From: Thermoplasmata archaeon
GTDB taxonomy: Archaea > Thermoplasmatota > Thermoplasmata > Methanomassiliicoccales > Methanomethylophilaceae
Reading direction: 5' to 3'
Assembly (NCBI GenBank): GCA_015063285.1
Contig: SUST01000006.1
Location: 1-64,000 of the forward strand
Length of the DNA: 64,000 bases
Shown one piece after another: positions 31,787-60,759 of this stretch (position 1 is its first letter; each line of letters begins with the position of its first letter). Under the pieces are notes generated by a model. It did no database searches. It saw nothing but the letters and a program-made list of their open reading frames with translations, and was not told where the DNA came from. The position numbers were made by a program, and so were the translations under genes.

Positions 31787-32236
31787 TCAGAGGCTCCTGA
31801 GAGATTCAGGAAGCTTCCTGTCCGCGGGCAGTTCCGATATGAGATCCGCTATTGTCGTTCTGGACAGGTCTTCGAGCATAGCGTCCATCGCTGATGTGAA
31901 ATGGGAATCCAGCAGACTGTGGATCTCCTTCCCTATAGGGCACTGGAGATTGGCAGGGTACATGTTGAATGTCTCTTCAACGGATTCCTCCTGAGTAGCG
32001 ATGAAGACATCCTTCAGTGTGATCCGGTCGGCCGGTTTCGCAAGAACGGTTCTGGCATTCCCTTTGCCGGGATTCAGAAGCCCGGCTTTGGATAGTTTGC
32101 TGAAGACCTTTCTGACTATCACTGGATTGCAGCCTATGCTCCTGGATACCGTCTCGCTAGTGACCTTATCCTCATTGAAGTAGGCGTAGATCAGCAGAGT
32201 ATGGATGCCTACGGTGAATTCGGAGTCTACGTGCAT
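31787..32236 (-). CDS. Rrf2-family transcriptional regulator
   Basis: A 149-residue winged-helix regulator starting at ATG 32236 (MHVDSEFTVGIHTLL), 2 bp after the upstream gene's stop. The helix-turn-helix reads VTSETVSRSIGCNPVIVRKVFSKL and the wing GLLNPGKGNAR. Only one cysteine occurs in the region where Fe-S members carry three (NLQCPIG), so it is of the cluster-free, YwnA-like type. The neighbours are a DUF1638-like and a B12-fold protein, which it may control. Confidence 0.8.
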   Translation of the reverse strand: MHVDSEFTVGIHTLLIYAYFNEDKVTSETVSRSIGCNPVIVRKVFSKLSKAGLLNPGKGNARTVLAKPADRITLKDVFIATQEESVEETFNMYPANLQCPIGKEIHSLLDSHFTSAMDAMLEDLSRTTIADLISELPADRKLPESLRSL

Positions 32237-32238
32237 GG

Positions 32239-33090
32239 TCAAGCTTGAAGGAAGGATTTGCACTTGCTGTAGATGTCATCGGTCGGCTGGAGATCCACCC
32301 ATCCGGCCTCAGCCTCTTTGATCTTGAGATGTGTCCTCTCGGATACCTTCTGAAGATCTTTCTCGAAGTTCTCCCTGTCTCCGATGCCGGTGTCCAGCTT
32401 GAGGATGTATTCGTAATTGCCCAGCTGAAGGAGCCATCTCAGATATCCGTCGCGGCCAGGTTCTATCCCCAGGACCTCTCTCATCTCGGGAGTGAGGCTG
32501 GCCTCTGTGGCCGCAGATTCCGCCTGGTCAGCTTCCATGAAGTCGTCGAAGTTCGTAGCCATCGCTGGGAAGACATACAGGTGTCCCGTGTATTTCTGTT
32601 GCATCTGATTGTATTTGGGGCCTCCAGCGATGTTTATTCCGACGCAGTCGTGGCAGAGGTATCCGTTCTTGTCGCAGAACACCGCACCGGGTTTGAAATG
32701 CTTCTCCTCGCACCATTTGGGAATGTTCCATTCGTAGTTGCCGCAGGTCCCTAGATAGAAGCCTATGCCGTCCACGAAGGGCTGCATCTCGGTCGTTATC
32801 TCCTCGACAGTGGACTTGAGGACCTCCGGTCTCGAGTGAAGGCCCAGGTCCGTCATGTAGATCAGTAGTGTGAACTTATCCTTGGGCAGATCGTAATTGC
32901 GCGACAGTATATCGTTCCAGAATACCAGTTCGTATTTCATGCCGGCTTCTTCCAGTTTCCTTCTGATGGAACCGTTGTTCTTGTTCTGGACGACTATGAT
33001 ATTCTTCTCTTCGTCATCCTTCTTGAGACTGTAGATCAGATTATCGTCGACCATAGGACAGACAATCAGGCCCAGGACTCCGTGTGTCAT
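32239..33090 (-). CDS. DUF1638-like protein
   Basis: A 283-residue cytosolic protein. The central section (FYLGTCGNYEWNIPKW, GYLCHDCVGINIAGG, GHLYVFPAM) and the later YILKLDTGIGDRENFEKDL parallel the DUF1638 protein at 53426-54037 (VLFLDTGIGNEDEYRELSE). Conserved cysteines (CGNYEW, FCDKNGYLCHDC) could bind metal or a thiol. DUF1638 proteins are common beside corrinoid-dependent methyltransferases in methanogens; their function is unknown. It is 2 bp from the Rrf2 gene and 38 bp after the B12-fold gene. Confidence 0.55.
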   Translation of the reverse strand: MTHGVLGLIVCPMVDDNLIYSLKKDDEEKNIIVVQNKNNGSIRRKLEEAGMKYELVFWNDILSRNYDLPKDKFTLLIYMTDLGLHSRPEVLKSTVEEITTEMQPFVDGIGFYLGTCGNYEWNIPKWCEEKHFKPGAVFCDKNGYLCHDCVGINIAGGPKYNQMQQKYTGHLYVFPAMATNFDDFMEADQAESAATEASLTPEMREVLGIEPGRDGYLRWLLQLGNYEYILKLDTGIGDRENFEKDLQKVSERTHLKIKEAEAGWVDLQPTDDIYSKCKSFLQA

Positions 33091-33128
33091 AAAAATTGTT
33101 ACAAACTAAAAGGATAAAAAGATGTTGC

Positions 33129-33659
33129 TCAGGCAGATGATCTCCTGCGGACCTCTTCCTTGATCAGTCTGACGGATCTGCTTGCTGAATTGGAGTAGAT
33201 GTCGCATTCCGCCTTCTCCGCTATCTTGTCCGATATGGCGGCACCGCCGATGTTGAGCACTATGCGTTCCCTGATCCCTGCTTCTTTCAGCATCTCGGAG
33301 ATGTCCAAGGCCTCCGGGCAGTCATAGGTGGTCTGTACCGACATGCATAGTACCGTGACCTCAGGATCCATGCATTCCTCTACGATATCCTTCAGTTCGG
33401 CATCACGGTCTACCACAATCACAGAGAACCCCTGCATGGTCAGGAGAGCGGCCATGAGGTCCCTTCCTTCGCTGTGCCTCCCGAAACATGTCACCACGGC
33501 TTTTCCCAGAGAAGGGTCGCAGATTATCACATCGCCCTCCTCGCGGAGACGGTTCACAGAACGTATGAATTCCAAAAGAGGGATCCTCCCTGATTCGAAT
33601 CCTTCGAGCAGCTCGTTCACTCTGTGGTCCGACTCCATGATATCATCATAGAAAGACAT
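33129..33659 (-). CDS. B12-binding-fold protein with degenerate cobalamin motif
   Basis: A 176-residue protein with a helical N-terminal part (residues 1-50) and a Rossmann-like C-terminal domain, the layout of methyltransferase corrinoid proteins (about 210 residues). The canonical cobalt-ligand motif GDxHxxG is altered: it reads FGRHSEGRDLMAALL, so the His and Gly remain but the Asp is gone. Later elements SVQTTYD and NIGGAAIS match the fold. It may be a sensor or a corrinoid carrier with altered base-off chemistry. It is first in a unit with the DUF1638-like and Rrf2 genes. Confidence 0.65.
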   Translation of the reverse strand: MSFYDDIMESDHRVNELLEGFESGRIPLLEFIRSVNRLREEGDVIICDPSLGKAVVTCFGRHSEGRDLMAALLTMQGFSVIVVDRDAELKDIVEECMDPEVTVLCMSVQTTYDCPEALDISEMLKEAGIRERIVLNIGGAAISDKIAEKAECDIYSNSASRSVRLIKEEVRRRSSA

Positions 33660-38383: not shown

Positions 38384-39177
38384 CAGAGCACCTCCGGGAA
38401 CTTCTTCTCATATGTGAAGAACACGAACGCTCCGAGCAGGTACATCCCTGCCGCCAATATCAGGCTCATCAGGAGATACTCCGTGTGCGGGAAGATTCCA
38501 TAGTACAGGATGTCATGGAAAGTTTCCACATAATAAGTGAACGGATTATACCACACGATCGTTCCCAGAAGGCCCTTGGCCTCGCTGGCCAGGAAGAATG
38601 TGGGGGTTATCCAAATGACCAATCTCATCACTATGCTCATGATGTATCCCACGTCCTTGATGAAGACTGTGATCGTCGATACCAGATACGAGCTTCCCAA
38701 TGAAAATACGAACATCAGGAACAATTCGACAGGGAGCATGGCCATACCGAACCAGTTGACATACTGTCCTGAAAGCAGGATCACGATGATTATGACCATG
38801 TAAGCGAAGACCACGCTCAGGAACTCTGTGATGACCGTTGAGAAGACGATGATCTCTCTGGGGATCTTCATTTTCGTGACGTAGCTAGCATTCGCTGTGA
38901 TGGCTCTTCCCCTCAGACAGCTGGAGATGAAATAGACGGGGAATATTCCTGCACTCAAGTAGATCCAGAAATCTTCCATGGCACGCGGTCTGATGTAAGT
39001 GAACGTTATCGTCAGCACGACGATCATCAGGACGGGCAGAAGCAGATGCCATACGAATCCGACGTATGTGCTCTTGTAACGTCCGGCAGTGTTCCTTCTG
39101 ATCATCGCCAGCAGGATCGTCTTGTTTGCACGGACGTCTCTGACGGACTGTGCTAATCTGGTAAAGATGTTGATCAT
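38383..39177 (-). CDS. Wzm/TagG-like polysaccharide export permease
   Basis: A 264-residue ABC-2 permease with six membrane segments. RNTAGRYKSTYVGFVWHLLLP at the N-terminus and the later WITPTFF, with the periplasmic YYVETFHDILYYG, are typical of the Wzm/TagG group, which exports lipid-linked polysaccharide. The gene overlaps the LRR gene upstream (ATGA at 39174-39177) and the ATPase downstream, so all three are made together. Confidence 0.85.
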   Translation of the reverse strand: MINIFTRLAQSVRDVRANKTILLAMIRRNTAGRYKSTYVGFVWHLLLPVLMIVVLTITFTYIRPRAMEDFWIYLSAGIFPVYFISSCLRGRAITANASYVTKMKIPREIIVFSTVITEFLSVVFAYMVIIIVILLSGQYVNWFGMAMLPVELFLMFVFSLGSSYLVSTITVFIKDVGYIMSIVMRLVIWITPTFFLASEAKGLLGTIVWYNPFTYYVETFHDILYYGIFPHTEYLLMSLILAAGMYLLGAFVFFTYEKKFPEVL

Positions 39178-40742
39178 TCTCGCACACCTCTGAACATTCT
39201 GACGATGAATAGTACGACAAGTATGCAGACCAGTACTCCGAGCAGATTCTCGTAGGGGTACGGGCGCTCTCCCAAGATGTGTATGTCCAATGTTGTGTTA
39301 TCGCCATTCACATTTTCGGGGATGAAAAGGTCTTTGGGAACCGTCAGATTAAGGATGACGGGATCCTCTTCAGTTCCGATATCTAACGAGTATGAATTCA
39401 GAATCACGTCGGGGCTGTAGATTATGAATTCGGTAAGATTACAGGATTTGCAAAACGCAGTATAACCCACATCAACCCTGGAATTTTCAGGTATTGTGAC
39501 TTTCTTAAGATTCTTGCAATCGTTGAATGCCGAAAGACCAATGGATGTTACGGAGCTCGGAACGACAAGCTCTTCCAGGCCTGTTCCTTTGAACGCCAGT
39601 AATCCGATCACCGTTATTTGTTCACCGAAAGTAATATTGGTCAAAGATTCGCATCCATTGAATGCGGCGTATTCAACGACCGAGACATTACTCAGATCGA
39701 TTTCTTCAAGGGACCGACAGTTTTCGAACGCATCTTCGTTTATGACGGCCATGGTCTTGGGCAGGACTATCTTCTTCAAATTGGAGCATCCGGAGAATGC
39801 CATGGGTTCTATTTCCGTGACATTTTCATCCATGTATAGTTCGGTCCTCTCACTGGCTGCTGGATAGGCTATCAGTTTTTTGTTGTGGGATACATCGTAC
39901 AGGATTCCCTCTTCCTCCTGATATTTGTAATTGTCAGATGTTATACTCTTTAGGTTGGGGCAATCGCTGAAAACCCTCTCGCCCATCGAATACAGTCCCG
40001 AAGGTATGTTGATCCGTTCTATGCCCGATTCCGCGAATACGCAGTCGCCCATCAGTTTCAGATCATCAGGCAGTTTGAGGTTGGTTAGTTTCTTGCATCC
40101 TTCGAACACTGAGGAGTCCAGAATGCTCACGGAGCTCGGCAACTCGTTAGCAATTCCAATGCCGTTGATCGATTCCAGATTCTCGCAGCAAGCGAACGCT
40201 TCGAATCTGATTTCTTTGAGTCCCACAGGCATAACCACGGCGACGAGATTTGTTCTGCAAAACGCACCTGTGTCGATCGTCGTTACATCTTTGGGAATGA
40301 CATAAGCGCTGCCCTCTTTGCATGCAGGATATGCTATAAGCGTGCGCATATCCTTGGTAAAAATGACTCCGTCCACGCTGCAATAGTTCTTGTTATTCTC
40401 ATCCACGGAGATGTAATACAAATCCGATGATGTGAACACCCAGACATCGATGAATTCCACCGTCGCGGGGATATGTACGGTCCTAACAGGTTCTTTAAAC
40501 GTCGCATAGATCGATACGATGGTATACTCCTTGTCATCGTGCATCACGGTAGACGGTACGATCATATCTTCCGTAGTGGAATCTTCCAAAACTGTGATTA
40601 TCGAGACAGTTGTGGAGGTTTCGACTGAGTATTCGAAATCCCCGTCCTCGAAGTAATCGTACCCGTCGACAGAACTAAACGCAAGCGGGAATAGGATGAT
40701 AGAAGCGGTCAATATCAACAGGACGGAGAGACGAATTCCCAT
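39174..40742 (-). CDS. BspA-type leucine-rich-repeat surface protein
   Basis: A 522-residue exported protein: N-terminal signal (residues 5-25), then about twelve LRR_5/BspA repeats with phrases such as AFSGCSNLKKIVLPKTM, AFENCRSLEEIDLSN and AFNDCKNLKKVTIPENS, and a C-terminal membrane segment (NLLGVLVCILVVLFIVRM) with a basic end. BspA repeats mediate adhesion in gut microbes. It is the first gene of a four-gene overlapping operon with the Wzm- and Wzt-like proteins. Confidence 0.9.
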   Translation of the reverse strand: MGIRLSVLLILTASIILFPLAFSSVDGYDYFEDGDFEYSVETSTTVSIITVLEDSTTEDMIVPSTVMHDDKEYTIVSIYATFKEPVRTVHIPATVEFIDVWVFTSSDLYYISVDENNKNYCSVDGVIFTKDMRTLIAYPACKEGSAYVIPKDVTTIDTGAFCRTNLVAVVMPVGLKEIRFEAFACCENLESINGIGIANELPSSVSILDSSVFEGCKKLTNLKLPDDLKLMGDCVFAESGIERINIPSGLYSMGERVFSDCPNLKSITSDNYKYQEEEGILYDVSHNKKLIAYPAASERTELYMDENVTEIEPMAFSGCSNLKKIVLPKTMAVINEDAFENCRSLEEIDLSNVSVVEYAAFNGCESLTNITFGEQITVIGLLAFKGTGLEELVVPSSVTSIGLSAFNDCKNLKKVTIPENSRVDVGYTAFCKSCNLTEFIIYSPDVILNSYSLDIGTEEDPVILNLTVPKDLFIPENVNGDNTTLDIHILGERPYPYENLLGVLVCILVVLFIVRMFRGVRE

Positions 40743-48883: not shown

Positions 48884-50029
48884 ATGAAGATAAAGTACAA
48901 GAGCAAGATAGCCAACCTGGGCCTGAAGCTGCGTCTGTCCGAGAGTTCATCCAAGGTTGTGAAGAAGCAATCGGATGGTGCAGTGACCAATCAGGACATC
49001 ATCAGACAATACAGCGCATACAAGTATGCCAAGTTCATGATGCTGTTGGTCGTGGCCGTACTGTGTCTGATAACATTCGGTATCGACATCGGTCTCGGAG
49101 CGTATTCCCTGAGTTTCATCGACGTATATGCAGCCATCTTCGAGAGGCTGATGGATTGGGACCAGGTCATGTCCACTGACATGATGGTTGTTTGGGAGCT
49201 TAGGATGCCCCGTGTCATAATGGGCCTATTGGCTGGAATGGGACTGGCAATAGCTGGAGCCGCTATGCAGAGCATGATGAAGAACCCGTTGGCCGATCCA
49301 TACACCACAGGAATATCCTCAGGAGCTGCTCTAGGTGCCACCATAGCCATCACCTTGGGGATTGCCATCATAGGAGGCAGCTTCGGAACGGTCATCAACG
49401 CATTCGTGTTCGCACTTCTGCCCGCGGCGTTCATCATTCTCATATCCCTTTACAAGAAACCGTCCCCAGCCATGATAATCCTGTCAGGTATATCCCTGAT
49501 GTACATCTTCAACGCGGTGCAGTCTTATCTCATGCTGGTCGCAGATCCGGACGCTGCCGCCAGCGTCATAGCGTGGACCATCGGGTCCCTGAATTCGGCC
49601 AGTTGGGAGACCGTTCCATATGTGTTCCTCATGACCTTGCTCGGAGGCATCGTACTGTTGTATATGGCGAGGGTGCTCAACACAATGAATGCCGGAGATT
49701 CATATTCGAAGAGCATAGGTGTGGATGTCAACAAGGCGCGCATAATAACGCTTGTCACCGTTTCGCTGCTCGCAGCCGGAATAGTATCGTTCACGGGAGT
49801 CATAGGGTTCATCGGACTGGTCGGACCGCACATAGCCCGTATCTTTGTCGGTTCAGATAACAAGATACTTATCCCGGCGGCCGGGCTCATGGGTGCAGGT
49901 TTGATGCTATTAGCTGACTGTGTCGTGCAGATTGTTCTTCCCACGCTGCCCATCGGAATCATCACGTCGATCATCGGAGGACCTGTGTTCATGATCCTAT
50001 TGCTCAGACAGAAGAAGGAGGTGTGGTGA
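48884..50029 (+). CDS. ABC transporter permease, BtuC/FecCD type
   Basis: A 381-residue permease with ten predicted membrane segments. GMGLAIAGAAMQSMMKNPLADPYTTGIS is the conserved region, and FIGLVGPHIARIFVG is the late coupling motif. The N-terminal 45 residues before the first helix are basic and longer than usual. GGGAGG gives a clear ribosome-binding site before ATG 48884. The stop overlaps the ATPase start. The substrate is vitamin B12/corrinoid or a ferric siderophore. Confidence 0.9.
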   Translation: MKIKYKSKIANLGLKLRLSESSSKVVKKQSDGAVTNQDIIRQYSAYKYAKFMMLLVVAVLCLITFGIDIGLGAYSLSFIDVYAAIFERLMDWDQVMSTDMMVVWELRMPRVIMGLLAGMGLAIAGAAMQSMMKNPLADPYTTGISSGAALGATIAITLGIAIIGGSFGTVINAFVFALLPAAFIILISLYKKPSPAMIILSGISLMYIFNAVQSYLMLVADPDAAASVIAWTIGSLNSASWETVPYVFLMTLLGGIVLLYMARVLNTMNAGDSYSKSIGVDVNKARIITLVTVSLLAAGIVSFTGVIGFIGLVGPHIARIFVGSDNKILIPAAGLMGAGLMLLADCVVQIVLPTLPIGIITSIIGGPVFMILLLRQKKEVW

Positions 50030-50880
50030 TGTCATTGAAGATTGAGGCTCAGGATCTAGGGGTATCTTATGGTGACAACTTGATATGGGAGCATATCAAC
50101 CTGACCATCGATCAGCCTGGTCTGATCAGTATCTTGGGGCCGAACGGAGTCGGTAAATCGACATTCATGTACACGATAAACAAGATCCTGGAGCCGACCT
50201 CAGGCCGTGTCTTGCTTGACGGAAAGGATGTCATGGAGCTTTCCTACAAGGATATAGCGAAAAGGGTCGCGTATGTCCCTCAGGCATCCGGAGAGACTTT
50301 CGCCATGACTGTCATGGATACCGTACTGATGGGAAGGTATCCCCATTCAGGATATACCGTGACCAAAGAGGATATGGAAATCGCCGCAGACAGTCTTCAG
50401 AAGATGCATATGGGCGAGTTCGCGATGAGGAACTTCAACGAACTCTCAGCCGGACAGCACCAGAGGGTCATGATCGCAAGAGGGCTTGCGCAGATGCCCG
50501 ATCTCCTTATGCTCGATGAACCTACTTCCAATCTAGACATCTATCATCAACTGTACACGATGAAGTTATTGCGCGACCTGGCGCATGAGAGGAACATAAC
50601 GGTTCTCGTGATTTGTCATGATCTAAATGTTGCTGCGAAATTCTCCGATCGCGTTATCATGTTCTGTAAGGGAAAGGTCTACTCGGACGGACCGGCTGAC
50701 GAGACACTCACCGCAGACACGATCAAAGATGTTTACGGAGTCACCTCTGACATCATAACGGTGGATGAGCATCCGTATGTCATCTATCATTCGGACGATA
50801 TCGATACAGGAATGGCGCCATCGCAGAAGACTACCACTGTGCCGAAGGGCGAGAAGGGCAACGATGATGTGGAGAACTGA
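50029..50880 (+). CDS. ABC transporter ATPase, BtuD/FecE type
   Basis: A 283-residue ATPase starting at ATG 50029 (after GGAGGTG; GTG 50023 in frame). Walker A is GPNGVGKSTFMYT near residue 37, the signature LSAGQHQRVMIARGLA near 137, and Walker B LLMLDEPTSNLD. The stretch after, including VICHDLNVAAKFSD, is typical of BtuD/FecE. It completes the importer with the binding protein and permease. About 40 extra C-terminal residues are polar. In a corrinoid-dependent methanogen, corrinoid import is the most likely use. Confidence 0.88.
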   Translation: MSLKIEAQDLGVSYGDNLIWEHINLTIDQPGLISILGPNGVGKSTFMYTINKILEPTSGRVLLDGKDVMELSYKDIAKRVAYVPQASGETFAMTVMDTVLMGRYPHSGYTVTKEDMEIAADSLQKMHMGEFAMRNFNELSAGQHQRVMIARGLAQMPDLLMLDEPTSNLDIYHQLYTMKLLRDLAHERNITVLVICHDLNVAAKFSDRVIMFCKGKVYSDGPADETLTADTIKDVYGVTSDIITVDEHPYVIYHSDDIDTGMAPSQKTTTVPKGEKGNDDVEN

Positions 50881-51216: not shown

Positions 51217-53067
51217 GTGTATTACGCGGCGATAATAAGTGATGCAAAGATTACTATCAGTCTGACTGAGAAATTCTTACATCATTTCAACAAGGACATC
51301 AAATCCGTAGTCGTCGGCGATGTTAACCAATTGATGAGCTTGATTAACGCTGCAGAGCTTATTGATGTTATCATCATAGAGCAGACTGAAACGCTAAGGT
51401 TTGTGGAAATCATGAAGGCGTTGAATCGTTTCAACGTGGATTTGCCCCTTATTCTGATGTCCAAAGAATGCGATCCTGAGCTGATGTCTTCTGCAGTGAA
51501 TGAGCATGTGGACAATTATCTTTGTATTGCCGACAAAGAACCTGCGGACTACTACAAGGAACTCGTGGATCTGATAATCTTCGCCGTTGAGAGATACCGT
51601 GTCAAGAGACAGCACATGCTGGACACTAAGAGATATTCCTCATTGGTCGAATTGGCGAAGCAGGATCAATATGATTTCCAAGCGATCATCAATTATGCTC
51701 TTGAGAATGCCATGTATCTGACGGACAGTAAGATAGGATACGTTGCTTTTGTGAATATCCCGGAGAACAAGCTGACGATGCTGGCTTGGTCCCAGTCAGC
51801 GATGAATGAATGCCGTGTGCAGAATAAGCAGATGGATTTCAAACTGAATGAAGCAGGCCTGTGGGCAGCACCGGTCCGTACAGGCAAAACTGTGATCATT
51901 GATGACTATAAGACGACGAATCATGTCATGAAACACGGAGCACCGATGGGCCATGTGGAGATGAAGACCCTGATGATGGTCCCGATCAAGTTGAATGGAG
52001 AGATCATCGGTACAGTGGGTGTCGGGAACAAGGCAAGGGAATACAACACGTCCGATGAGTACAATGTCCAGCAGCTGTTCCAAGAGGCTTTCAAGATACA
52101 GCAGTCCGTCATCACCAAGAACAGGTACGAGAGCGAGCTGGCGATCTACAGGAAGATACTTGATAGGAGTCCGTTCGGCGTAATGTATGTGACGCGTGAA
52201 GGTTTCAAAGCAATCTATAACAATAACGCTGCATCAATTCTAGGTTTGAAACCTACCACAGAAATGGTGGACCTTTCTAAGAATAGGGGGGAGATCGTCG
52301 ATTACATAATCGCGCGTATCGCCAATTATACTGATTTGGATGACGGTATTGTTTTCGATGTCGGGAATGTGAAATGGTCACTCACTATCAATAAATTCAG
52401 TGAGGAAGGCCTCGACGGCTACGGTGTGATCTTCACTGAGGTGACCAACATCTTGGAGTACAAGAGCAAGATCAGCAGTGATGAGGCCACTTTGAGATTG
52501 ATGCAGGGTCTGGTCAGTAACGAATTGATGTCTGTGGTGGCGATTCTGAAAACCATCAAGGATTCTGATGAGAAGTTCGTGACCATCAAGTACAAACTGG
52601 AGGATATTTCGAGATTCTTGAAATCGGTGACTATGATGGACTTCAGCAATCTGTCATGGGTAGATTTGGACGAGGTCATCGACAAAGGATTCGACGATTA
52701 TATCGGTTCGTCATTGGACATCAAAATCAAATTGGCAAGCATCAAGGTGTTCGCCAGTAATTCTTTGTCCCGCGTATTCTACGAATACAGACACATGGTC
52801 TCCAACAGATGCATAAACATCACTTCCATAGAGGTAAAGTTCAGCGTTGAGGACGGGAATCTTAAACTGACCCTCATGGACGACGGTGTGCATCCGTTAT
52901 CCTATGGGAATAATCAATCAGGAATGTTCTATCTCGACCCGTTACCAACGGTCCTGATCACTCAGATTTGCAAGGGCAACGGTATGGATGTAAAATGGAT
53001 TCCGAAGGGACATAGTTATGTGGCTGAGATCACGATACCGCCTGAGAGATACAAGATCGGTTCGTGA
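51217..53067 (+). CDS. Cytosolic sensor-like protein (pseudo-receiver, GAF, PAS, degenerate kinase)
   Basis: A 616-residue protein starting at GTG 51217. Residues 1-115 have a receiver-like fold, but the phospho-acceptor Asp position reads VIIIEQTE. A GAF-type domain spans about 155-295 (GYVAFVNIPENKLTMLAWS, MVPIKLNGEIIGTVGVGN), and a PAS-like domain about 310-410 (LDRSPFGVMYVTREG). The C-terminal part resembles a histidine kinase with no clear acceptor His and a weak ATP-binding end (DDGVHPLSYGNNQSG). Such sensors in methanogens control methyltransferase operons; this gene converges on one. Confidence 0.65.
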   Translation: MYYAAIISDAKITISLTEKFLHHFNKDIKSVVVGDVNQLMSLINAAELIDVIIIEQTETLRFVEIMKALNRFNVDLPLILMSKECDPELMSSAVNEHVDNYLCIADKEPADYYKELVDLIIFAVERYRVKRQHMLDTKRYSSLVELAKQDQYDFQAIINYALENAMYLTDSKIGYVAFVNIPENKLTMLAWSQSAMNECRVQNKQMDFKLNEAGLWAAPVRTGKTVIIDDYKTTNHVMKHGAPMGHVEMKTLMMVPIKLNGEIIGTVGVGNKAREYNTSDEYNVQQLFQEAFKIQQSVITKNRYESELAIYRKILDRSPFGVMYVTREGFKAIYNNNAASILGLKPTTEMVDLSKNRGEIVDYIIARIANYTDLDDGIVFDVGNVKWSLTINKFSEEGLDGYGVIFTEVTNILEYKSKISSDEATLRLMQGLVSNELMSVVAILKTIKDSDEKFVTIKYKLEDISRFLKSVTMMDFSNLSWVDLDEVIDKGFDDYIGSSLDIKIKLASIKVFASNSLSRVFYEYRHMVSNRCINITSIEVKFSVEDGNLKLTLMDDGVHPLSYGNNQSGMFYLDPLPTVLITQICKGNGMDVKWIPKGHSYVAEITIPPERYKIGS

Positions 53068-53082
53068 TTCAGCCTTATCGGT

Positions 53083-53412
53083 TTATTGACCATCCAGGAC
53101 GATCTCGTTGTTGTGTGCGAGGTTGCATAGGTTAGGAGATAGAAGCCCTATCTCGAGCCATGCGGCATCGAATACCGCATTAGGAACCAGACACGGCAAG
53201 GACAGCGTCGCTCTAACTTCGGGATCCACCACTTTGCTTCCAGCAAATGTAGTAACATCATCCATGGTTATCACGGTAAGTTTCTTCGCATATTCCTTGA
53301 CATGAGGACAGTTGGATGTTATTATCACATCCAGATTCCCTTCATCATTCAGTTTCACCTCGACTACATGCTGCTTCGAGCATGTATTCATGTTCACTAC
53401 TACTTTGGCCAT
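53083..53412 (-). CDS. DUF6951-like cysteine-containing protein
   Basis: A 109-residue protein starting at ATG 53412 with GGAAGGAA before it. It has conserved cysteines in NTCSKQHVVEV, ITSNCPHV and SLPCLVPNAVFDAAWLEIGL, matching the small DUF6951-type proteins seen in methyltransferase operons of methanogens and acetogens. The function is unknown; thiol or metal binding is plausible. It is the last gene of the six-gene methyltransferase operon, 13 bp after the DUF1638 gene. Confidence 0.6.
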   Translation of the reverse strand: MAKVVVNMNTCSKQHVVEVKLNDEGNLDVIITSNCPHVKEYAKKLTVITMDDVTTFAGSKVVDPEVRATLSLPCLVPNAVFDAAWLEIGLLSPNLCNLAHNNEIVLDGQ

Positions 53413-53425
53413 TTTCCTTCCTTCT

Positions 53426-54037
53426 TTACACACTTGCTAATCCTTTCGCTTCAGTAAGCGCTTTTTTGATCCTATCTATATCGCATTTTCTGCAATCATG
53501 TTTTAGATTGAGTTCATTAGCAAATTTCTCTGAGAGCTCGCGATATTCATCCTCGTTGCCGATCCCTGTGTCCAGGAAAAGTACCCTTTGATAAGAATCG
53601 AAGATGATGTCGAAGAAGAATTCAGGTTCGAAGTCCTCAAGCATATCTAGGTGCAACTCTTTAATCAGTCCCTGTGTGCCTTCCAGGGCCCATCCGGGTG
53701 TATTGAACCATGTTCCTGTGCAGTCTTTCTTCTCCGCTTTGTATTCATCAGGGCCAAGTATCGCTTCGATGCAGTCACAACCTTTCAGCATCACAGATGG
53801 TATGGGAATCTCATCGGTTATTCTCTCCAAGGAGTTGCAAACCGCATATCCTAGGAAGAGGACGTCCACCTTTCCTTCGAATTCTTTTGCTTCCTCGAGT
53901 ATGACCTCCTTCATATGCGGGGGGTCTTCGTGCAGTGCGAATTCGAGATACTTCTTCATCACGATGTCCTCATCGCCGGCTGTAAGGTATTCCAATTCCG
54001 GCTTCAGAATGTCGCATGCGAGAATGCCTATCCTCAT
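53426..54037 (-). CDS. DUF1638 protein
   Basis: A 203-residue protein; ATG 54037 is favoured with AGGTGA upstream, while GTG 54046 overlaps the HyuA-like stop. The family pattern is visible: MRIGILACDILKPEL, then VLFLGYAVCNSLERI, KGCDCIEAILG, TWFNTPGWA and FLDTGIGNEDEY. The C-terminus has a second cysteine pair (CRKCDIDR). DUF1638 proteins are found beside corrinoid methyltransferases in Methanosarcina, with unknown biochemistry. The similar protein at 32239-33090 lies in another corrinoid-linked cassette. Confidence 0.75.
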   Translation of the reverse strand: MRIGILACDILKPELEYLTAGDEDIVMKKYLEFALHEDPPHMKEVILEEAKEFEGKVDVLFLGYAVCNSLERITDEIPIPSVMLKGCDCIEAILGPDEYKAEKKDCTGTWFNTPGWALEGTQGLIKELHLDMLEDFEPEFFFDIIFDSYQRVLFLDTGIGNEDEYRELSEKFANELNLKHDCRKCDIDRIKKALTEAKGLASV

Positions 54038-54042
54038 CACAT

Positions 54043-56043
54043 TCACCTGAATTGCTTGGGCTTACCCGCAGCCCTTATCGTCATGTGGATTTCGACCAGA
54101 GGATTGTCCTCTCCGTAATCCTTCGAGTTACCGTACTTGAACGTGCTGCGATCAGTTTCAACGCTGATTGAAATGTCTTCAGCACCGCTTCTGTCTATGG
54201 CGTCCTGAACATATCTGCGTCCGTCTTCTTCGGCATGCTTGAGGGCTTCCTCCATGGAATCGTATTTTACATTGCCCATCTTGGAGAATACCTCTACTTT
54301 GCTCTCGGTAGCACCGATTGTTTCCGGTTTTATCAGAATCTCCAGGACTTCGGAGATGGAGGAAGTAATGGCGCCGATTGCATTTCCTACTCCGGAGTAT
54401 TCGTGGATGAGAACAGGGGTATTGAACGCCTCTCCCACCCATTTGATGTATACTCCTGACGGGGCACCGATGCCTATGATCGGTTGTTTTATCGTAATGC
54501 TGCAGCTGTAGTCATTGTTACCTTCATGGAAGACTGCTTTCTTGAGCATATTTTGAGCCACATCGCTGATGGTGTGCCCCCCTTCCTCATGGTAGATGAC
54601 CTTCATCAGTTCCAAGCATAGTTTGTATTTTATGCGGTCCTTCGCTTCCTTGATGAAGGATTCGGTGTTCGATCCCATTCTGTCTGCAAGATAGTTTACT
54701 GCGGCCAGAGAAGCTTCTGCATCGAATTCGGAATATGTGCCCTCAGCATGGAGGATATCTGTAGGCGTTACACCTATCCTTTGTATGTAACCGAGGGATT
54801 CGAGTTTGTATATGTTGAAGTTCATGGGATGTATTCCCAGAATCTCGCCTGCCTCGTTCAGGCTGTACGGATGATCTTTAAGAAGCTCCAGCAGACTCAT
54901 GTCTGTTGGTGTGATAATACGGCCTTCCTCAGGTATCCTGAGGGTGCGGAACATCTCGCAATCGAGTATGATGTTGTCCTCGCCTAACGCAGGTGGGGAA
55001 GGCCTTGATGCGATATTCGTTAATCTTCTGTAGTAATCGTGAACAAATTCCCACTCGGTGCTGGCAAGACACACAGGCATTACTCTCAGAGATGAAAGTA
55101 TCATATTCGGGCCGTTCACCAATATACGGCTGTCCCCTCCAATACCAGAAGTCTCGATGTCAGCAGCCATCACCCTCGTGCGTTTTCCACCGATGATCGC
55201 ACCTTCGGGGTCAAGGCGCGGTCTTCCGTTACGAAGGATTCCGATGTCTGTCGTAGTTCCTCCCATATCCATAACGATGGCGTTCTTTTGTCCGGTCAGC
55301 ACCATAGCTCCTATAAGACTCGCAGCTGGTCCGGATATGATTGTTTCCACTGGACGTTCTTTTGCGATGTCCTCGCCCATCATGGATCCGTCTCCGCGTA
55401 CTATCATCAGAGGGGCATGAATGGACAGCTCTTCCATGACTTTCTTAACTGATTTGATGAGGTCGTCGATGATCGGGATGAGGCGCGCATTCATTATGGA
55501 TGTGGACGTCCTCTCGTTAAAGCCGAGTCCGGAAGATAATTCATGTCCGCATATCACAGGCACATTCAGAATGGACTTGGCCAAAGCCTTGATTTTGTTC
55601 TCGTGGTCAGGATTGCGGACTGACAGGAAACTGTTGATTGACAGTCCATCTACCTTCCCTTTGATCTCTTCCAGGAATTTTGTAGCGGCATCGATGTCAA
55701 GCGGTTTCGCCTCATTTCCATGCAGGTCATGGCCTCCAGAAATCACTATGGAAAAGTCAGACCTAACTGAATTGTCGTAATCATTGCCGATGCATATGAG
55801 TCCTACTCTGCATCCTTTTCCCTCCACTACTGAGTTGGTTGCTAGAGTAGATGAGAGGGATACGACGCCAATCTTTGGTAGATACTCTTGTGGGATTTTC
55901 ATCATTACATTGCGCAATCCGATACTCAAATCCTCTCTAGTTGTGTGAGACTTAGTGCAGTAAAGGACATCGTTATTGTCCAAATTAATTATGGCTGCAT
56001 CTGTGTATGTGCCCCCGGTATCGAGGCCTAATCCCAGTGTCAT
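54043..56043 (-). CDS. HyuA-type hydantoinase/oxoprolinase-family ASKHA ATPase
   Basis: A 666-residue protein of the HyuA family. The phosphate-binding loops are LGLDTGGTYTDAAII at residues 4-18 and VMDMGGTTTDIGIL near 255. VSLSSTLATNSVVEGKG and RPVETIISGPAASLIGA are typical. The partner HyuB subunit is absent. HyuA shares the ASKHA fold with RACo-type ATPases that reductively reactivate corrinoid proteins, so in this operon it may drive such activation; this is inference. It overlaps the DUF1638 gene and lies 91 bp after the zinc-ribbon gene. Confidence 0.8.
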   Translation of the reverse strand: MTLGLGLDTGGTYTDAAIINLDNNDVLYCTKSHTTREDLSIGLRNVMMKIPQEYLPKIGVVSLSSTLATNSVVEGKGCRVGLICIGNDYDNSVRSDFSIVISGGHDLHGNEAKPLDIDAATKFLEEIKGKVDGLSINSFLSVRNPDHENKIKALAKSILNVPVICGHELSSGLGFNERTSTSIMNARLIPIIDDLIKSVKKVMEELSIHAPLMIVRGDGSMMGEDIAKERPVETIISGPAASLIGAMVLTGQKNAIVMDMGGTTTDIGILRNGRPRLDPEGAIIGGKRTRVMAADIETSGIGGDSRILVNGPNMILSSLRVMPVCLASTEWEFVHDYYRRLTNIASRPSPPALGEDNIILDCEMFRTLRIPEEGRIITPTDMSLLELLKDHPYSLNEAGEILGIHPMNFNIYKLESLGYIQRIGVTPTDILHAEGTYSEFDAEASLAAVNYLADRMGSNTESFIKEAKDRIKYKLCLELMKVIYHEEGGHTISDVAQNMLKKAVFHEGNNDYSCSITIKQPIIGIGAPSGVYIKWVGEAFNTPVLIHEYSGVGNAIGAITSSISEVLEILIKPETIGATESKVEVFSKMGNVKYDSMEEALKHAEEDGRRYVQDAIDRSGAEDISISVETDRSTFKYGNSKDYGEDNPLVEIHMTIRAAGKPKQFR

Positions 56044-56099
56044 GATTCTTGAATCCCGTCCTAGTGATGTCGGTGTTAAGAGGTTGTAAGAAGGTGTGG

Positions 56100-56121
56100 A
56101 GAATAGGGGTCGCCCTATTCT
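56100..56121. terminator. Intercistronic hairpin between zinc-ribbon and HyuA-type genes
   Basis: The perfect 9-bp stem AGAATAGGG/CCCTATTCT with a 4-nt loop (GTCG) lies in the 90-bp gap between the two minus-strand genes. It may end part of the transcripts or protect a 3' end, lowering hyuA expression relative to the methyltransferase genes. Confidence 0.55.
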
Positions 56122-56133
56122 GGTATTGATTAT

Positions 56134-56454
56134 TCATTTGTTGAATGATGATATGCCACGATCCGTGCCACGGTTGTACATGAAATTACTCATGTGGTCT
56201 GACAGTATCCTTTGCTGATCTTTGTTATGGATGTCAGTCGAGTTCAGTATAGGGAATTCGTAATCGCATTTGTTGCAACGTACTTTGTTGCAACCGCGAA
56301 CGGCTTCCGAGCATCCTTGGCAAGCGAATGCCCTGGCGTAAACCAGTGAGAAATTGAATCCGCATCTGGGGCACGTAAGGGTTTTGCGTACCGATGCGGT
56401 CTCAGTATCTTTGAAGCCATGGTCGTTCATGGCTTTGAAGAACGTAGTAGTCAT
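56134..56454 (-). CDS. Zinc-ribbon protein
   Basis: A 106-residue protein starting at ATG 56454 with GAGTGAT upstream; GTG 56463 is in frame. It contains CPRCGFNF near residue 30, CQGCSEAVRGC near 47, and CNKCDYEFPI near 60, forming one or two zinc-binding ribbons. The C-terminal tail is basic and polar. It is the third gene of the methyltransferase operon; no function is known. It might be a regulator or a metal donor to the URO-D-type enzyme, which needs zinc. Confidence 0.7.
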   Translation of the reverse strand: MTTTFFKAMNDHGFKDTETASVRKTLTCPRCGFNFSLVYARAFACQGCSEAVRGCNKVRCNKCDYEFPILNSTDIHNKDQQRILSDHMSNFMYNRGTDRGISSFNK

Positions 56455-56471
56455 GGGAATCACTCAATTGT

Positions 56472-56543
56472 GGATTCCACCGCCCTGCTGGAAGAAAAAC
56501 AAGGGGCAGGAGCAGGATGGTGGAATCCCCGCCCGAAGGCGGG
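56472..56543. promoter_or_regulatory. Long intercistronic stem-loop and adjoining UUCG hairpin
   Basis: An 18-bp inverted repeat (56472-56489 with 56511-56528, one wobble and one mismatch) with a 21-nt loop is followed immediately by a perfect 6-bp GC stem (CCCGCC/GGCGGG, 56528-56543). Read on the transcribed strand, the latter has a UUCG loop. Both lie in the 101-bp gap between the methyltransferase and zinc-ribbon genes and could stabilise or terminate the upstream message. Confidence 0.65.
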
Positions 56544-56555
56544 TTAGAATGTTTC

Positions 56556-57650
56556 TCAGAATGCTCCGTACTTGTGGGTCGCGTCCATAACTCCCTGGAC
56601 AACTTCCCACTTGGTCTCAAGGTCCGGAGGGACCTCACATCCGGATGCGATGCACACGTGCGAGTTGAGCCCTGCTTTGCACATTGCGGTCTTACAGTCC
56701 TGGCAGAGTTCCTTGGTCACCTGTACAGCCTCATCGTAAGTGCCTCTCATGAAGAGCTGGGGGTCGATTGTTCCCATGATTGTACACTTCTCGCCGTATC
56801 CTCTCTCGATGACGCTTGCCATCGTAGGGGACTCAGGGATCTGAGGGTAATATGCCATAGAGTATCCGTCAACACCGAACAGTTTGATCTGGGTGTCGAG
56901 GTGAGGCATATCAGCACAGTTGTGGATTGCGAGACCGATTCCTGCCTTCCTGGTTGCTTCGTTGGTCCTCTTGGCGTATTTCTCTCCCTCGAATTCCATG
57001 TATTCAGGGTCTCCGAGACAGGAGTAGTTACCCCAAAGGTAATCCCAACACATTGCTTCTACGCCGGTCTGTGCGATCTCTGTTACTGCTTCGCAACAGA
57101 ACTGTGTCGTGGATTCTAGTGCCTTGTGGACTGCATCGGGATCAGTGTACATGTCCATCATGACCTGCTCCGCTCCTCCTGCTTGGGTGAGAGTTAGGAG
57201 AGGTCCCTCGAGGAATGACATGAGGAATGATTTTCCTTTCAGTTCCTTTGCAGCAAGTTTGTTCATCTCAATGAGGTGTCCCGTACGGCCCTTATGGCAG
57301 TCGGGGTGTGTCTCAGCGATCTTCTCGTAATCTTCTGCCGTGTGGACGATGTGACCATCGACGAATGGAGTGTTCTCAGCATCCATCCTTACGTTCGCGC
57401 CGTAGTCATGAGCTGTGACGGAAAGGTCCTCTAGCAGAACAGAGTATGGGAATTTGTACTGCTTGAATCCCTCGACGAATGAATCCGCACATACCTTCGC
57501 ATCAGTTGCCCAAGTCTTGTAGGTAACTGGCTGGTTGGGGAGAAGCCTTCTCTGAAGTCCGCAGACAAGAGGGTATGCGGGAAGCTCATCGACAGGCTCG
57601 TTCATGAGGGTTGCTACTGCTCTCTCATAGGGTGTCATAGGTGCGACCAT
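56556..57650 (-). CDS. URO-D-family methylcobamide methyltransferase (MtbA/MtaA/MtsA type)
   Basis: A 364-residue TIM-barrel of the uroporphyrinogen decarboxylase family. The zinc site of methylcobamide:CoM methyltransferases is visible as HNC (IHNCADMPH, near residue 243) and a later Cys (ASGCEVPPD near residue 330). It moves the methyl group from the corrinoid protein to coenzyme M, or in MtsA-like members also takes it from the substrate. The ATG at 57650 has GGGGTGA ahead. It lies 5 bp after the corrinoid gene. No substrate-specific MtbB/MttB-like gene accompanies it. Confidence 0.88.
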   Translation of the reverse strand: MVAPMTPYERAVATLMNEPVDELPAYPLVCGLQRRLLPNQPVTYKTWATDAKVCADSFVEGFKQYKFPYSVLLEDLSVTAHDYGANVRMDAENTPFVDGHIVHTAEDYEKIAETHPDCHKGRTGHLIEMNKLAAKELKGKSFLMSFLEGPLLTLTQAGGAEQVMMDMYTDPDAVHKALESTTQFCCEAVTEIAQTGVEAMCWDYLWGNYSCLGDPEYMEFEGEKYAKRTNEATRKAGIGLAIHNCADMPHLDTQIKLFGVDGYSMAYYPQIPESPTMASVIERGYGEKCTIMGTIDPQLFMRGTYDEAVQVTKELCQDCKTAMCKAGLNSHVCIASGCEVPPDLETKWEVVQGVMDATHKYGAF

Positions 57651-57655
57651 TCAAA

Positions 57656-58288
57656 TCACCCCTTGAGGTATGCAACGCAGTCCTGAGCGTTGATGTCACG
57701 GTGGTCTGCTCCAATGGTCTCGGCAAACTGAGGTGAAGTCGGTGGTCCGCCAATTGTGACAATGCATCCTTCTTTGAGGCCGGATTCCTTCATGAGATCC
57801 ATGGTTGATTTCATTCCATCCATGGTGGGGGTCATGAGCGTTGAGAGACAGAGAATCTCGAGCTTCTCCTCTTTCACCTTGTCTACGATCAGACTAGGTG
57901 CGATATCCTTACCCATGTCAGTGACGAGGAATCCTCCTGCCGTCAACATGGTCTTAACGATGTTTTTACCGATGTCATGGACGTCTCCTTCCATGACTGC
58001 TGTGCCTGCTCTCTTTGCGTTGTCCAAAGCCCCTGCGGGAATTGCAGGAATAAGAATGTCCAATCCTGCATACAGTACCTTGGAAGCTACCAGGACCTGA
58101 GGAAGGAACATCTTGTGTTCTGCGAATTTGTCTCCAACAATAGACATTCCTTTAACGAGTCCTTCATTTATTGCTTCTACGGGGTCGAGACCTTCGTCGA
58201 GCGCTTGTTGCGCTAACGGTGCAGCGTCCTTGATCTTCAAGTTCACTACAGAGTCGGCTAAGGCCTGATAGATTTCCTCCTTGCTCAT
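57656..58288 (-). CDS. Corrinoid protein of a methyltransferase system (MtbC/MttC type)
   Basis: A 210-residue corrinoid protein. Residues 1-85 form the helical cap (EAINEGLVKGMSIVGDKF, MFLPQVLVASK). GDVHDIGKNIVKTMLTAGGF at about 102-121 contains the cobalt-ligand His, and LSTLMT and TIGGPPTS complete the B12 fold. It carries the methyl group to the URO-D partner encoded 5 bp downstream. AAGGAG precedes its ATG. It is the first gene of the operon, with a 600-bp AT-rich upstream region. Confidence 0.92.
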   Translation of the reverse strand: MSKEEIYQALADSVVNLKIKDAAPLAQQALDEGLDPVEAINEGLVKGMSIVGDKFAEHKMFLPQVLVASKVLYAGLDILIPAIPAGALDNAKRAGTAVMEGDVHDIGKNIVKTMLTAGGFLVTDMGKDIAPSLIVDKVKEEKLEILCLSTLMTPTMDGMKSTMDLMKESGLKEGCIVTIGGPPTSPQFAETIGADHRDINAQDCVAYLKG

Positions 58289-58896: not shown

Positions 58897-60759
58897 TCAA
58901 CCTTTGCGTGCAACGGCTGCGATGAAAATAGCCGTTACAGCAAGAACGATCACTGTGGCGATTGTCTTCGGAGTGTCGTCAGCAGGAGAGTCATCCTCGC
59001 CGTCCATGCCGTCGTCTCCGCCGACATCGGTGACATCTCCCACCTGGTATGTAGCCAAAAGGAACACGTTGCCGTATCTGTCCTCCACCGAGTTCCAGCC
59101 GCAGAACGTGAGTCCGAATTTGTTCACAGGGTCTTCTCCCTCATACGAAGGCCATTCGTTCAGGGGTACTCCTGTGGTCTTCTGAAGTATTGTACCGTCG
59201 TAGTTCATCCACGTGTAGGTGAGCGTTTCCGGTTTCGGATCCGGGATCTTGTACACGCTGCCCTTCTCCGGCGCTCCAATGGAAGTCCATGTGTATCCGC
59301 CGATGGCACCCGCAGTCACTGGTTCAACCTTTGTCGTCTTATCGCTTTCGTAGAACGTCATCGAGGTGAATGAGCCCATGTACTTTGAGGCTATTTGCGG
59401 GTCGTTGATCGCAGGTGCGTTGAATGTTTCCAGGTTTGCGCATAGGAAGGTAAAGAAACCGAGGTCGACATCAGTCCCTTCGATAGAGATGTATTTCAGG
59501 GTTTCGGATGTGAATGCCATCGTGTCTATGGATTTGACGGAAGCCGGTATGACCACTGACGTCAGGCTGTTCGAGCTGAATGCACACGCGCCTATGGATT
59601 TGACGGAATCGGGGATATTGACGTATTCTAACGGAGTACCGGCGAAGGCATGACCCTCTATCGATTCAATGGAAGCGGGCAGGACTATCGTTTTCAACGA
59701 TTTACATTCTCTAAACAAGCATCCCGGAATCTCTTTGAAGTTATCGGGGATATATGCATATTCGAGAGATGTACAATTTTCAAAAGCGCTGCTTCCTAAC
59801 GATTCCAGACCTTCAGGGAGTATGACGCATTTCAAAGATTCGCATCCTTTGAAGGCACCATTTCCTATGGACTTTATGTTGTCCAGCTTTATTTCGGTGA
59901 TTCCGCTGCTGTCGAATGACCACTCTTCAATCTCCGTGACGGAATCAGGGAGAACGACTGTCTTCAGATCACTGCAGCTTGAGAATGTTCTCGAAGCAAT
60001 CTTCGTGACGCCATCCGGTATCACTATCGACTTTATACCTGAGTTCGAGAACGTTCCGTTCAAAGCCCTTATCGAGCTTGGAAGTTCGATCTCTGGGATG
60101 GGTGCGCCGTAGAACACATCTAGTCCAAGTTCCTTTATGCCGTTCGGCAGTTTGACGGAAGTCAATTGGGTGCAGTCCTTGAAGATCTCGTCTCCCATCT
60201 TGGTGACAGTGTCTGGGATGACTATGGATTTGAGTTCGGTTCTTTCGAATGCGCTGTTTCCGATACTGGTCAGGGTGCTGGGAAGCACAACTTCAGAGAA
60301 TCTCAAGCAGAAGAATGCGAAGGATCCGATATGGGTCACGCCTTCCTCTATGATCAGCTTATTGCATCCGTAGTACGGGGAAGCCCATGCGGCCCTATCT
60401 ATCCACGGGGTGGTGGAGCAATCGGTGTGGTCTACATGGTGATAGTCCTCCATGGGGCCATTTCCGCTGACCTTTAGGATACCATCGCCTATCTGGACCA
60501 ATCCTGCAGAGTCTTTCTGCATCCATTGGCTATCATACGTGACCACACAATTTCCTGAATTCCAGGTAGTGTGGATTATTCCTGTATCCCCGTCGTGTAT
60601 TCCTATATCCCCGTCGTGTATTACAGCATCCGTTGATTCCGCTCCGACCGCGACGATATATGTACCGCACAGCATGAACGCAGCAGCCATCAGCACCAGG
60701 GCCAGCTTCTTCGAATTCGCGGAGTTAGATGTCTTTCCGACATTTCCTGTCTTTCTCAT
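58897..60759 (-). CDS. Large BspA-type leucine-rich-repeat surface protein
   Basis: A 620-residue exported protein. The signal-type segment spans residues 18-40. A tandem repeat IHDGD(I/T)G follows near residues 47-60. From about residue 130 to 450 there are about fourteen BspA/LRR_5 repeats (AFERTELKSIVIPDTV, AFENCTSLEYAYIPDN). A separate C-terminal domain (YTWMNYDGTILQKTTG, TFCGWNS) precedes an acidic linker (GGDDGMDGEDDSPADD) and a final membrane anchor. It probably faces the host or other cells. GGTGATTGA precedes the ATG. Confidence 0.9.
   Translation of the reverse strand: MRKTGNVGKTSNSANSKKLALVLMAAAFMLCGTYIVAVGAESTDAVIHDGDIGIHDGDTGIIHTTWNSGNCVVTYDSQWMQKDSAGLVQIGDGILKVSGNGPMEDYHHVDHTDCSTTPWIDRAAWASPYYGCNKLIIEEGVTHIGSFAFFCLRFSEVVLPSTLTSIGNSAFERTELKSIVIPDTVTKMGDEIFKDCTQLTSVKLPNGIKELGLDVFYGAPIPEIELPSSIRALNGTFSNSGIKSIVIPDGVTKIASRTFSSCSDLKTVVLPDSVTEIEEWSFDSSGITEIKLDNIKSIGNGAFKGCESLKCVILPEGLESLGSSAFENCTSLEYAYIPDNFKEIPGCLFRECKSLKTIVLPASIESIEGHAFAGTPLEYVNIPDSVKSIGACAFSSNSLTSVVIPASVKSIDTMAFTSETLKYISIEGTDVDLGFFTFLCANLETFNAPAINDPQIASKYMGSFTSMTFYESDKTTKVEPVTAGAIGGYTWTSIGAPEKGSVYKIPDPKPETLTYTWMNYDGTILQKTTGVPLNEWPSYEGEDPVNKFGLTFCGWNSVEDRYGNVFLLATYQVGDVTDVGGDDGMDGEDDSPADDTPKTIATVIVLAVTAIFIAAVARKG
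60580..60621. repeat. 21-bp tandem repeat (two copies) in the LRR gene
   Basis: Units 60580-60600 and 60601-60621 differ at one base and encode the heptad IHDGD(I/T)G twice. Such a repeat can change copy number by slippage. Confidence 0.7.

Follow-up and report, generated by a model that had tools for sequence, protein, structure and literature searches.

A conserved corrinoid methyl-transfer cassette with a divergent URO-D enzyme and a HyuA-type ATPase in Methanomassiliicoccales

How does a corrinoid protein gain its methyl group when no MtaB, MtmB, MtbB or MttB methyltransferase (collectively MtxB) lies beside it? The question is raised by a six-gene cluster at positions 53083-58288 of a 64,000-nucleotide stretch (the window) of contig SUST01000006.1, from a Thermoplasmata archaeon of the family Methanomethylophilaceae (assembly GCA_015063285.1). 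All four MtxB types and the activase RamA are absent from the cluster, and a single URO-D-superfamily methyltransferase is present. The six open reading frames share the minus strand and are separated by gaps of 5, 92, 90, -4 and -8 bases, an operon-like spacing. An original prediction, made from the letters of the window alone, had described a one-strand cluster with an intact GDVHDIG motif in the corrinoid protein and an HNC...C zinc site in the URO-D enzyme; coordinates, Pfam matches and alignment bear this out. The corrinoid protein joins a cap domain (B12-binding_2, PF02607) to a B12-binding domain (PF02310) and has the DxHxxG motif by which MtxC proteins are recognized, and its TIGR02370 score of 175.7 bits lies under the cut-off of 215.3.

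The 1.79 Mb assembly, a 96.7% complete draft, which limits whole-genome absences, was searched for MtaB, MtmB, MtbB, MttB and HyuB. It encodes MtaB twice, MtmB twice and MttB once, the MtmB and MttB genes with an amber codon; every one of the five directly adjoins its own corrinoid gene, and MtbB was not found. Since no MtxB gene is left without a corrinoid protein beside it, an orphan MtxB that charges the cassette's corrinoid protein from elsewhere was ruled out. The predicted lack of a dedicated MtxB is therefore real across the genome, as far as a 97% complete draft can show. HyuA was likewise expected to stand without HyuB, and the entire genome gave no match to HyuB (PF02538), while control genomes gave matches. 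Five further URO-D enzymes, called MtaA-type, and three RamA genes, the latter on contigs other than that of the window, complete the relevant inventory.

The cluster is one copy of a cassette that recurs across the order. A two-motif scan covering 84,980 named species genomes gave 71 loci, which carry the label Methanomassiliicoccales or Thermoplasmata in almost every case; the Clostridiales label of one short contig may reflect a binning error. Within 200 genomes of the class, the scores of this URO-D family exceed 430 bits, and the best enzyme outside it reaches 79. The family occurs in many, not all, genomes of the order, being absent from several near-complete ones and duplicated in others. 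In the 72 loci that carry this family, genes are kept in the order corrinoid protein, URO-D, (CobW GTPase, His-rich protein), zinc-ribbon protein, HyuA and (DUF1638), the bracketed genes being optional. The gene-neighborhood check that the original prediction had called for thus finds the corrinoid gene directly upstream of URO-D in 56 of 61 loci, with the zinc-ribbon gene (54/60), HyuA (46/51) and CobW (35/57) nearby; DUF1638 (17/48), the GAF regulator (15/47) and DUF6951 (10/47) are near less often, and all these counts take loci as independent, many of which are related. RamA is near the family URO-D in 1 of 47 loci, and MtaB lies within 7 kb in none of 47. The arrangement is far beyond chance. 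Most copies hold a corrinoid protein and a URO-D enzyme with no second methyltransferase in the operon, and some are flanked by CobN and chelatase ATPases or by CbiQ/CbiM cobalt-uptake genes. No earlier mention of the cassette was found in the open-licence literature on DUF1638 or on hydantoinase with Methanomassiliicoccales.

The URO-D enzyme retains a zinc triad, H243-x-C245 plus C338, that aligns with the His, Cys and Cys zinc ligands of Methanosarcina mazei MtaA in every family member. It is missed by the NCBIfam models TIGR01463 (60.8 bits against a cut-off of 235.4) and NF004889 (70.6 against 244); over the MtaA/CmuA-type models it scores 33-71 bits and the other five enzymes of the genome 124-441. 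The family is monophyletic with support of 100/100 and a long stem, and it falls outside the clade that holds M. mazei MtaA and four of those five enzymes (90/97), in a tree built without authentic MtsA, OdmB or MtoB sequences. Forced nesting inside the MtaA-type clade is weakly rejected by the approximately unbiased test (p-AU 0.041). The data neither establish nor reject a sister position of the family next to the HNC-motif URO-D enzymes of RamA/HyuA clusters (p-AU 0.337). MtaA is the best solved-structure match of the family profile (E value 8e-9), and CdmB, a solved substrate methyltransferase (MT1), has no significant similarity to it. By sequence, the family appears to be a branch of its own, somewhat nearer MtaA than CdmB.

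In this superfamily, S-methyltransferases are marked by His-Cys-Cys zinc and O-type enzymes by carboxylate or absent ligands, which ties the triad to S/Se-methyltransferases (PMC10418091). From its triad, the cassette enzyme is therefore predicted to bind a soft ligand with S or Se, namely a methylthiol-type donor, coenzyme M (CoM), or both. An MtxB is not an obligatory part of such a system, because the URO-D enzymes OdmB, VdmB, MtvB, MtoB and CdmB are themselves substrate methyltransferases (PMC13222342, PMC8630106). The description of the cluster as having no dedicated substrate methyltransferase thus stands for MtaB, MtmB, MtbB and MttB and fails in so far as URO-D can itself be MT1.

These observations point to a methyl-transfer system in which URO-D acts as the substrate methyltransferase while HyuA and DUF1638 maintain the corrinoid protein, a reading for which we regard the balance as even. 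An S- or Se-methyl compound bound in the zinc site would give its methyl group to the Co(I) corrinoid protein, from which the group would reach CoM, either through the same URO-D, in the manner of MtsA, or through an MtaA-type URO-D in trans. HyuA, an ASKHA ATPase without HyuB, would then maintain the corrinoid protein at the cost of ATP together with DUF1638 and the Cys-rich ribbon, by reactivation of Co(II) or by cofactor loading or exchange. In relatives, the CobW GTPase and His-rich protein may join this maintenance. The original prediction had posed a choice between a bifunctional URO-D and activation by HyuA/DUF1638; a substrate step on URO-D is indeed possible, yet the dichotomy is incomplete.

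A special case of this reading, possible but with the evidence leaning against it, is that URO-D both demethylates a methylthiol and methylates CoM alone, as the original prediction had suggested by analogy with MtsA. The corrinoid/URO-D layout of most copies, the His-Cys-Cys triad and the precedent of MtsA, as cited in PMC10418091 (Tallant 2001), are consistent with it, whereas the position of the family outside the MtaA/MtsA-type clade speaks against an MtsA identity. Sister-type clusters also pair an HNC URO-D with an MtaA-type enzyme. In loci L087 and L095, an MtaA-type URO-D comes directly after another URO-D that carries the same HNC motif, with HyuA, a corrinoid gene and RamA nearby, and L147 has the family URO-D and an HNC-type URO-D in one operon. 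Moreover, the genome itself offers a partner in trans. Contig C15 carries a corrinoid/URO-D pair without MtxB (L049:8704-10376), with an MFS transporter and an HTH_10 regulator as neighbors. Its corrinoid protein unexpectedly nests inside the cassette's corrinoid clade (100/99), though its URO-D is MtaA-type, and because of this nesting the C15 enzyme is the best candidate for CoM methylation in trans. Taken together, the three loci and this tree placement suggest a division of labor, with one URO-D as MT1 and an MtaA-type enzyme as the CoM-methylating MT2. A separate pair on contig C10 (L047:1600-5155), an MtaA/CmuA-type URO-D with an MtaC-like corrinoid protein and RamA, again without MtxB, is possibly a conventional mtsAB-like system.

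The HyuA-type protein has intact nucleotide-binding motifs for phosphate and adenosine (DTGGT, DMGGTTTD and GIGAP), invariant in up to 95 homologues. Its structural model (predicted local distance difference test, pLDDT, 87.5) matches subunits of hydantoinase (NMHase), caprolactamase and acetone carboxylase with template modeling (TM) scores of about 0.6, and RACo is only a remote match (TM 0.19). Searches with the RACo domains PF14574 and PF17651 (RACo_C_ter and Raco_middle) and with Fer Pfam models gave no matches to HyuA; the genome's RamA matches the RACo domains at 198 bits. A RACo homologue was ruled out by these domain and fold searches, as was a classical hydantoinase by the genome-wide lack of HyuB. 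If HyuA works on the corrinoid protein at all, its domains and model indicate that it would be a distinct ASKHA type. The evidence for a corrinoid role comes from context. Of 18 HyuA loci that lack the family URO-D and have full flanks, 6 have a corrinoid gene no more than 5 kb away, against an expected ~7% that rests on about 10 B12-domain genes per 1.79 Mb genome. A HyuA-type protein is encoded in a glycine-betaine methyltransferase cluster, all of whose proteins are more abundant on that substrate (PMC9768040). The surroundings of bacterial homologues on plasmids told little for the most part; two such homologues, from Mesorhizobium amorphae and Azoarcus, are near an MttB-family gene and betaine genes.

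The DUF1638 protein has four invariant residues (C11, H39, C70 and C92). Of 48 genomes of the order, 47 encode DUF1638, compared with 2 of about 200 elsewhere in the class; of 14 control genomes, Methanosarcina acetivorans alone has it. Phaeobacter inhibens needs DUF1638 to make methionine by the B12-dependent route, and there it co-occurs with a RamA-like activase (PMC5764234); in R. pomeroyi the DUF1638 gene SPO2162 is induced on N-osmolytes (PMC12478193). Solved structures include none with sequence similarity to it, a fold search with its model (pLDDT 90) gave no match below an E value of 1e-3, and the DUF1638 protein of the window has no matches on plasmids. A glutamate-racemase-like similarity (TM 0.43) was too weak to use. 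All seven Cys of the zinc-ribbon-like protein are invariant in its 73 homologues, with His90 kept in 99%, and its Pfam matches are all sub-threshold; the DUF6951 protein conserves C18, C42 and C81. The window has a second corrinoid/DUF1638 pair on the minus strand (31787-33659), a B12-binding protein of 176 residues followed by a DUF1638 protein of 283, with an Rrf2-type regulator. This long DUF1638 type is order-wide and also occurs without the six-gene cassette.

An activating role for HyuA and DUF1638 had been proposed, for HyuA from the ASKHA fold that it shares with RACo. That fold says little here, given the TM score of 0.19 and the missing RACo domains, whereas the published DUF1638 and glycine-betaine systems give the proposal outside support (PMC5764234, PMC9768040). 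HyuA and DUF1638 probably act in ATP-dependent corrinoid maintenance, by analogy with those systems. The more specific idea that they form, with the seven-Cys ribbon, a reactivation or cofactor-exchange class distinct from RamA/RACo, serving an S/Se-methyl system order-wide, is put forward tentatively and is somewhat less probable than the overall reading. Several findings weigh against the overall reading. DUF1638 and DUF6951 are near only a minority of the cassette copies in which they were scored, and bacterial HyuA homologues on plasmids mostly adjoin unrelated genes. No Fe-S domain is recognized in HyuA, whose structure is remote from that of RACo, the three RamA genes make a second reactivase not strictly needed, and URO-D could be a CoM methylase only.

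Alternatively, the ATP spent by HyuA may go into activating an amide, lactam or carboxylate, or into opening it, and so free the methyl donor, in which case HyuA and DUF1638 would process the substrate instead of maintaining the corrinoid protein. The nearest folds are indeed small-molecule enzymes, but those enzymes work with partner subunits, whereas HyuB is absent. HyuA is also found near other corrinoid-protein types, and DUF1638 tracks corrinoid methyl transfer in unrelated bacteria (PMC5764234), which leaves substrate processing unlikely.

Two further explanations are improbable. In one, URO-D would only methylate CoM, and an MtxB from another locus would charge the corrinoid protein. 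The structure search, which favors MtaA and not CdmB, agrees with this, but each MtxB of the genome has its own corrinoid protein, MtaB is not near the family in the 47 loci, and five other MtaA-type URO-D enzymes are already present. The other is an anabolic role, such as methionine synthesis from the methyl-corrinoid or selenide release from methyl-selenium as in M. voltae. The tie of DUF1638 to methionine in P. inhibens (PMC5764234) and the service of type 1 mlp clusters in dimethyl-selenide use (PMC10418091) lend it some weight; against it, MesB is reported for methionine in Methanomassiliicoccales (PMC7857596), and the patchy, sometimes duplicated occurrence of the family resembles that of an optional catabolic trait. 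O-demethylation of methoxy compounds, as by MtoB or MtvB, has precedent among archaeal MT1 enzymes of the superfamily (PMC8630106) and is very improbable in view of the His-Cys-Cys triad and because CdmB, a relative of MtoB with a solved structure, is not significantly matched.

Table 1. Genes of the cassette and its convergent neighbor, with positions in the window.
Feature	Position	Strand	Basis
Corrinoid protein, 210 aa, MtmC/MtbC-like	57656..58288	-	Pfam PF02607/PF02310, TIGR02370, tree
Divergent URO-D-superfamily methyltransferase, 364 aa, zinc triad H243/C245/C338	56556..57650	-	Pfam PF01208, 129.5 bits
Zinc-ribbon-like protein, 109 aa	56134..56463	-	Cys conservation; linkage 54/60 loci
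HyuA-type ASKHA protein, 666 aa	54043..56043	-	Pfam PF05378 (Hydant_A_N) and PF01968 (Hydantoinase_A), motifs, fold
DUF1638 protein, 206 aa	53426..54046	-	Pfam PF07796, 109 bits
DUF6951 protein, 116 aa	53083..53433	-	Pfam PF22263, 55 bits; linkage 10/47
Convergent GAF-domain protein, 616 aa, probable sensor/regulator of cassette	51217..53067	+	Pfam GAF_2; relatives beside cassette 15/47 loci

The features of the cassette are collected in Table 1. The operon of the window is without CobW and the His-rich protein; a related CobW GTPase lies elsewhere in the genome, beside RamA, and no homologue of the His-rich protein was found in the genome search. A protein type represented by L077:7548-8075 and relatives has no Pfam match, a His/Asp-rich N-terminal tail in many copies, several conserved His and one Cys. 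It usually adjoins a CobW-type GTPase, and the two are a candidate cobalt or zinc chaperone pair. Clusters L087, L090, L095 and L096 combine RamA, a CobW GTPase, the His-rich protein, one or two URO-D enzymes, HyuA and a corrinoid protein, with a radical SAM protein in L087. Just past the GAF regulator are FecCD/ABC importer genes (48884-50880, plus strand), possibly for corrinoid or siderophore uptake. BspA-type leucine-rich-repeat proteins, probably exposed on the surface of a gut archaeon, are encoded at 58897-60759 and 39174-40742 (both minus strand).

Animal guts and wetlands commonly harbor Methanomassiliicoccales, methanogens that live by methyl reduction, and the amount of methane these archaea produce is set by the range of substrates they can use. 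An unstudied order-wide methyl-transfer cassette points to a substrate not yet tested. If HyuA and DUF1638 do reactivate corrinoid proteins, DUF1638 would gain a molecular role, and a second kind of ATP-driven corrinoid activase would stand beside RamA/RACo.

Among known systems, MtsA/MtsB resembles the cassette in consisting of a corrinoid protein and one His-Cys-Cys zinc URO-D without MtxB. However, MtsA/MtsB stands alone, whereas the cassette enzyme lies outside the MtaA/MtsA-type clade and is linked to HyuA, DUF1638 and the zinc ribbon. The mlp gene clusters (MGCs) share a His-Cys-Cys URO-D, a corrinoid protein, an ATP-driven helper, the lack of a separate MtxB and proposed S/Se-methyl substrates. 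They differ in having two or three Mlps and a Ram/RACE activase, where the cassette has a single URO-D, from another branch, and the HyuA/DUF1638 module; the type 1 combination of Mlp2, Mlp3, corrinoid protein and Ram/RACE is not found in the window cluster.

The Mtv, Mto and Cdm systems likewise use URO-D as a substrate:corrinoid methyltransferase but, unlike the cassette, have a separate MT2 (MtvA, MtoA or CdmA) and a RACE activase, and their zinc ligands differ or zinc is absent. Glycine-betaine clusters with 'HydA' in strain DCMF, Sporomusa and Frackibacter place a HyuA-type protein within a corrinoid methyltransferase cluster (PMC9768040); their MT1, in contrast, belongs to the MttB superfamily, and the likeness to the HyuA of the cassette is one of protein type. 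In the split methionine synthase of P. inhibens, DUF1638 adjoins a corrinoid protein gene and is needed for the pathway (PMC5764234), although the ATPase there is of the RACo/RamA type (DUF4445) and that of the cassette is of the HyuA type.

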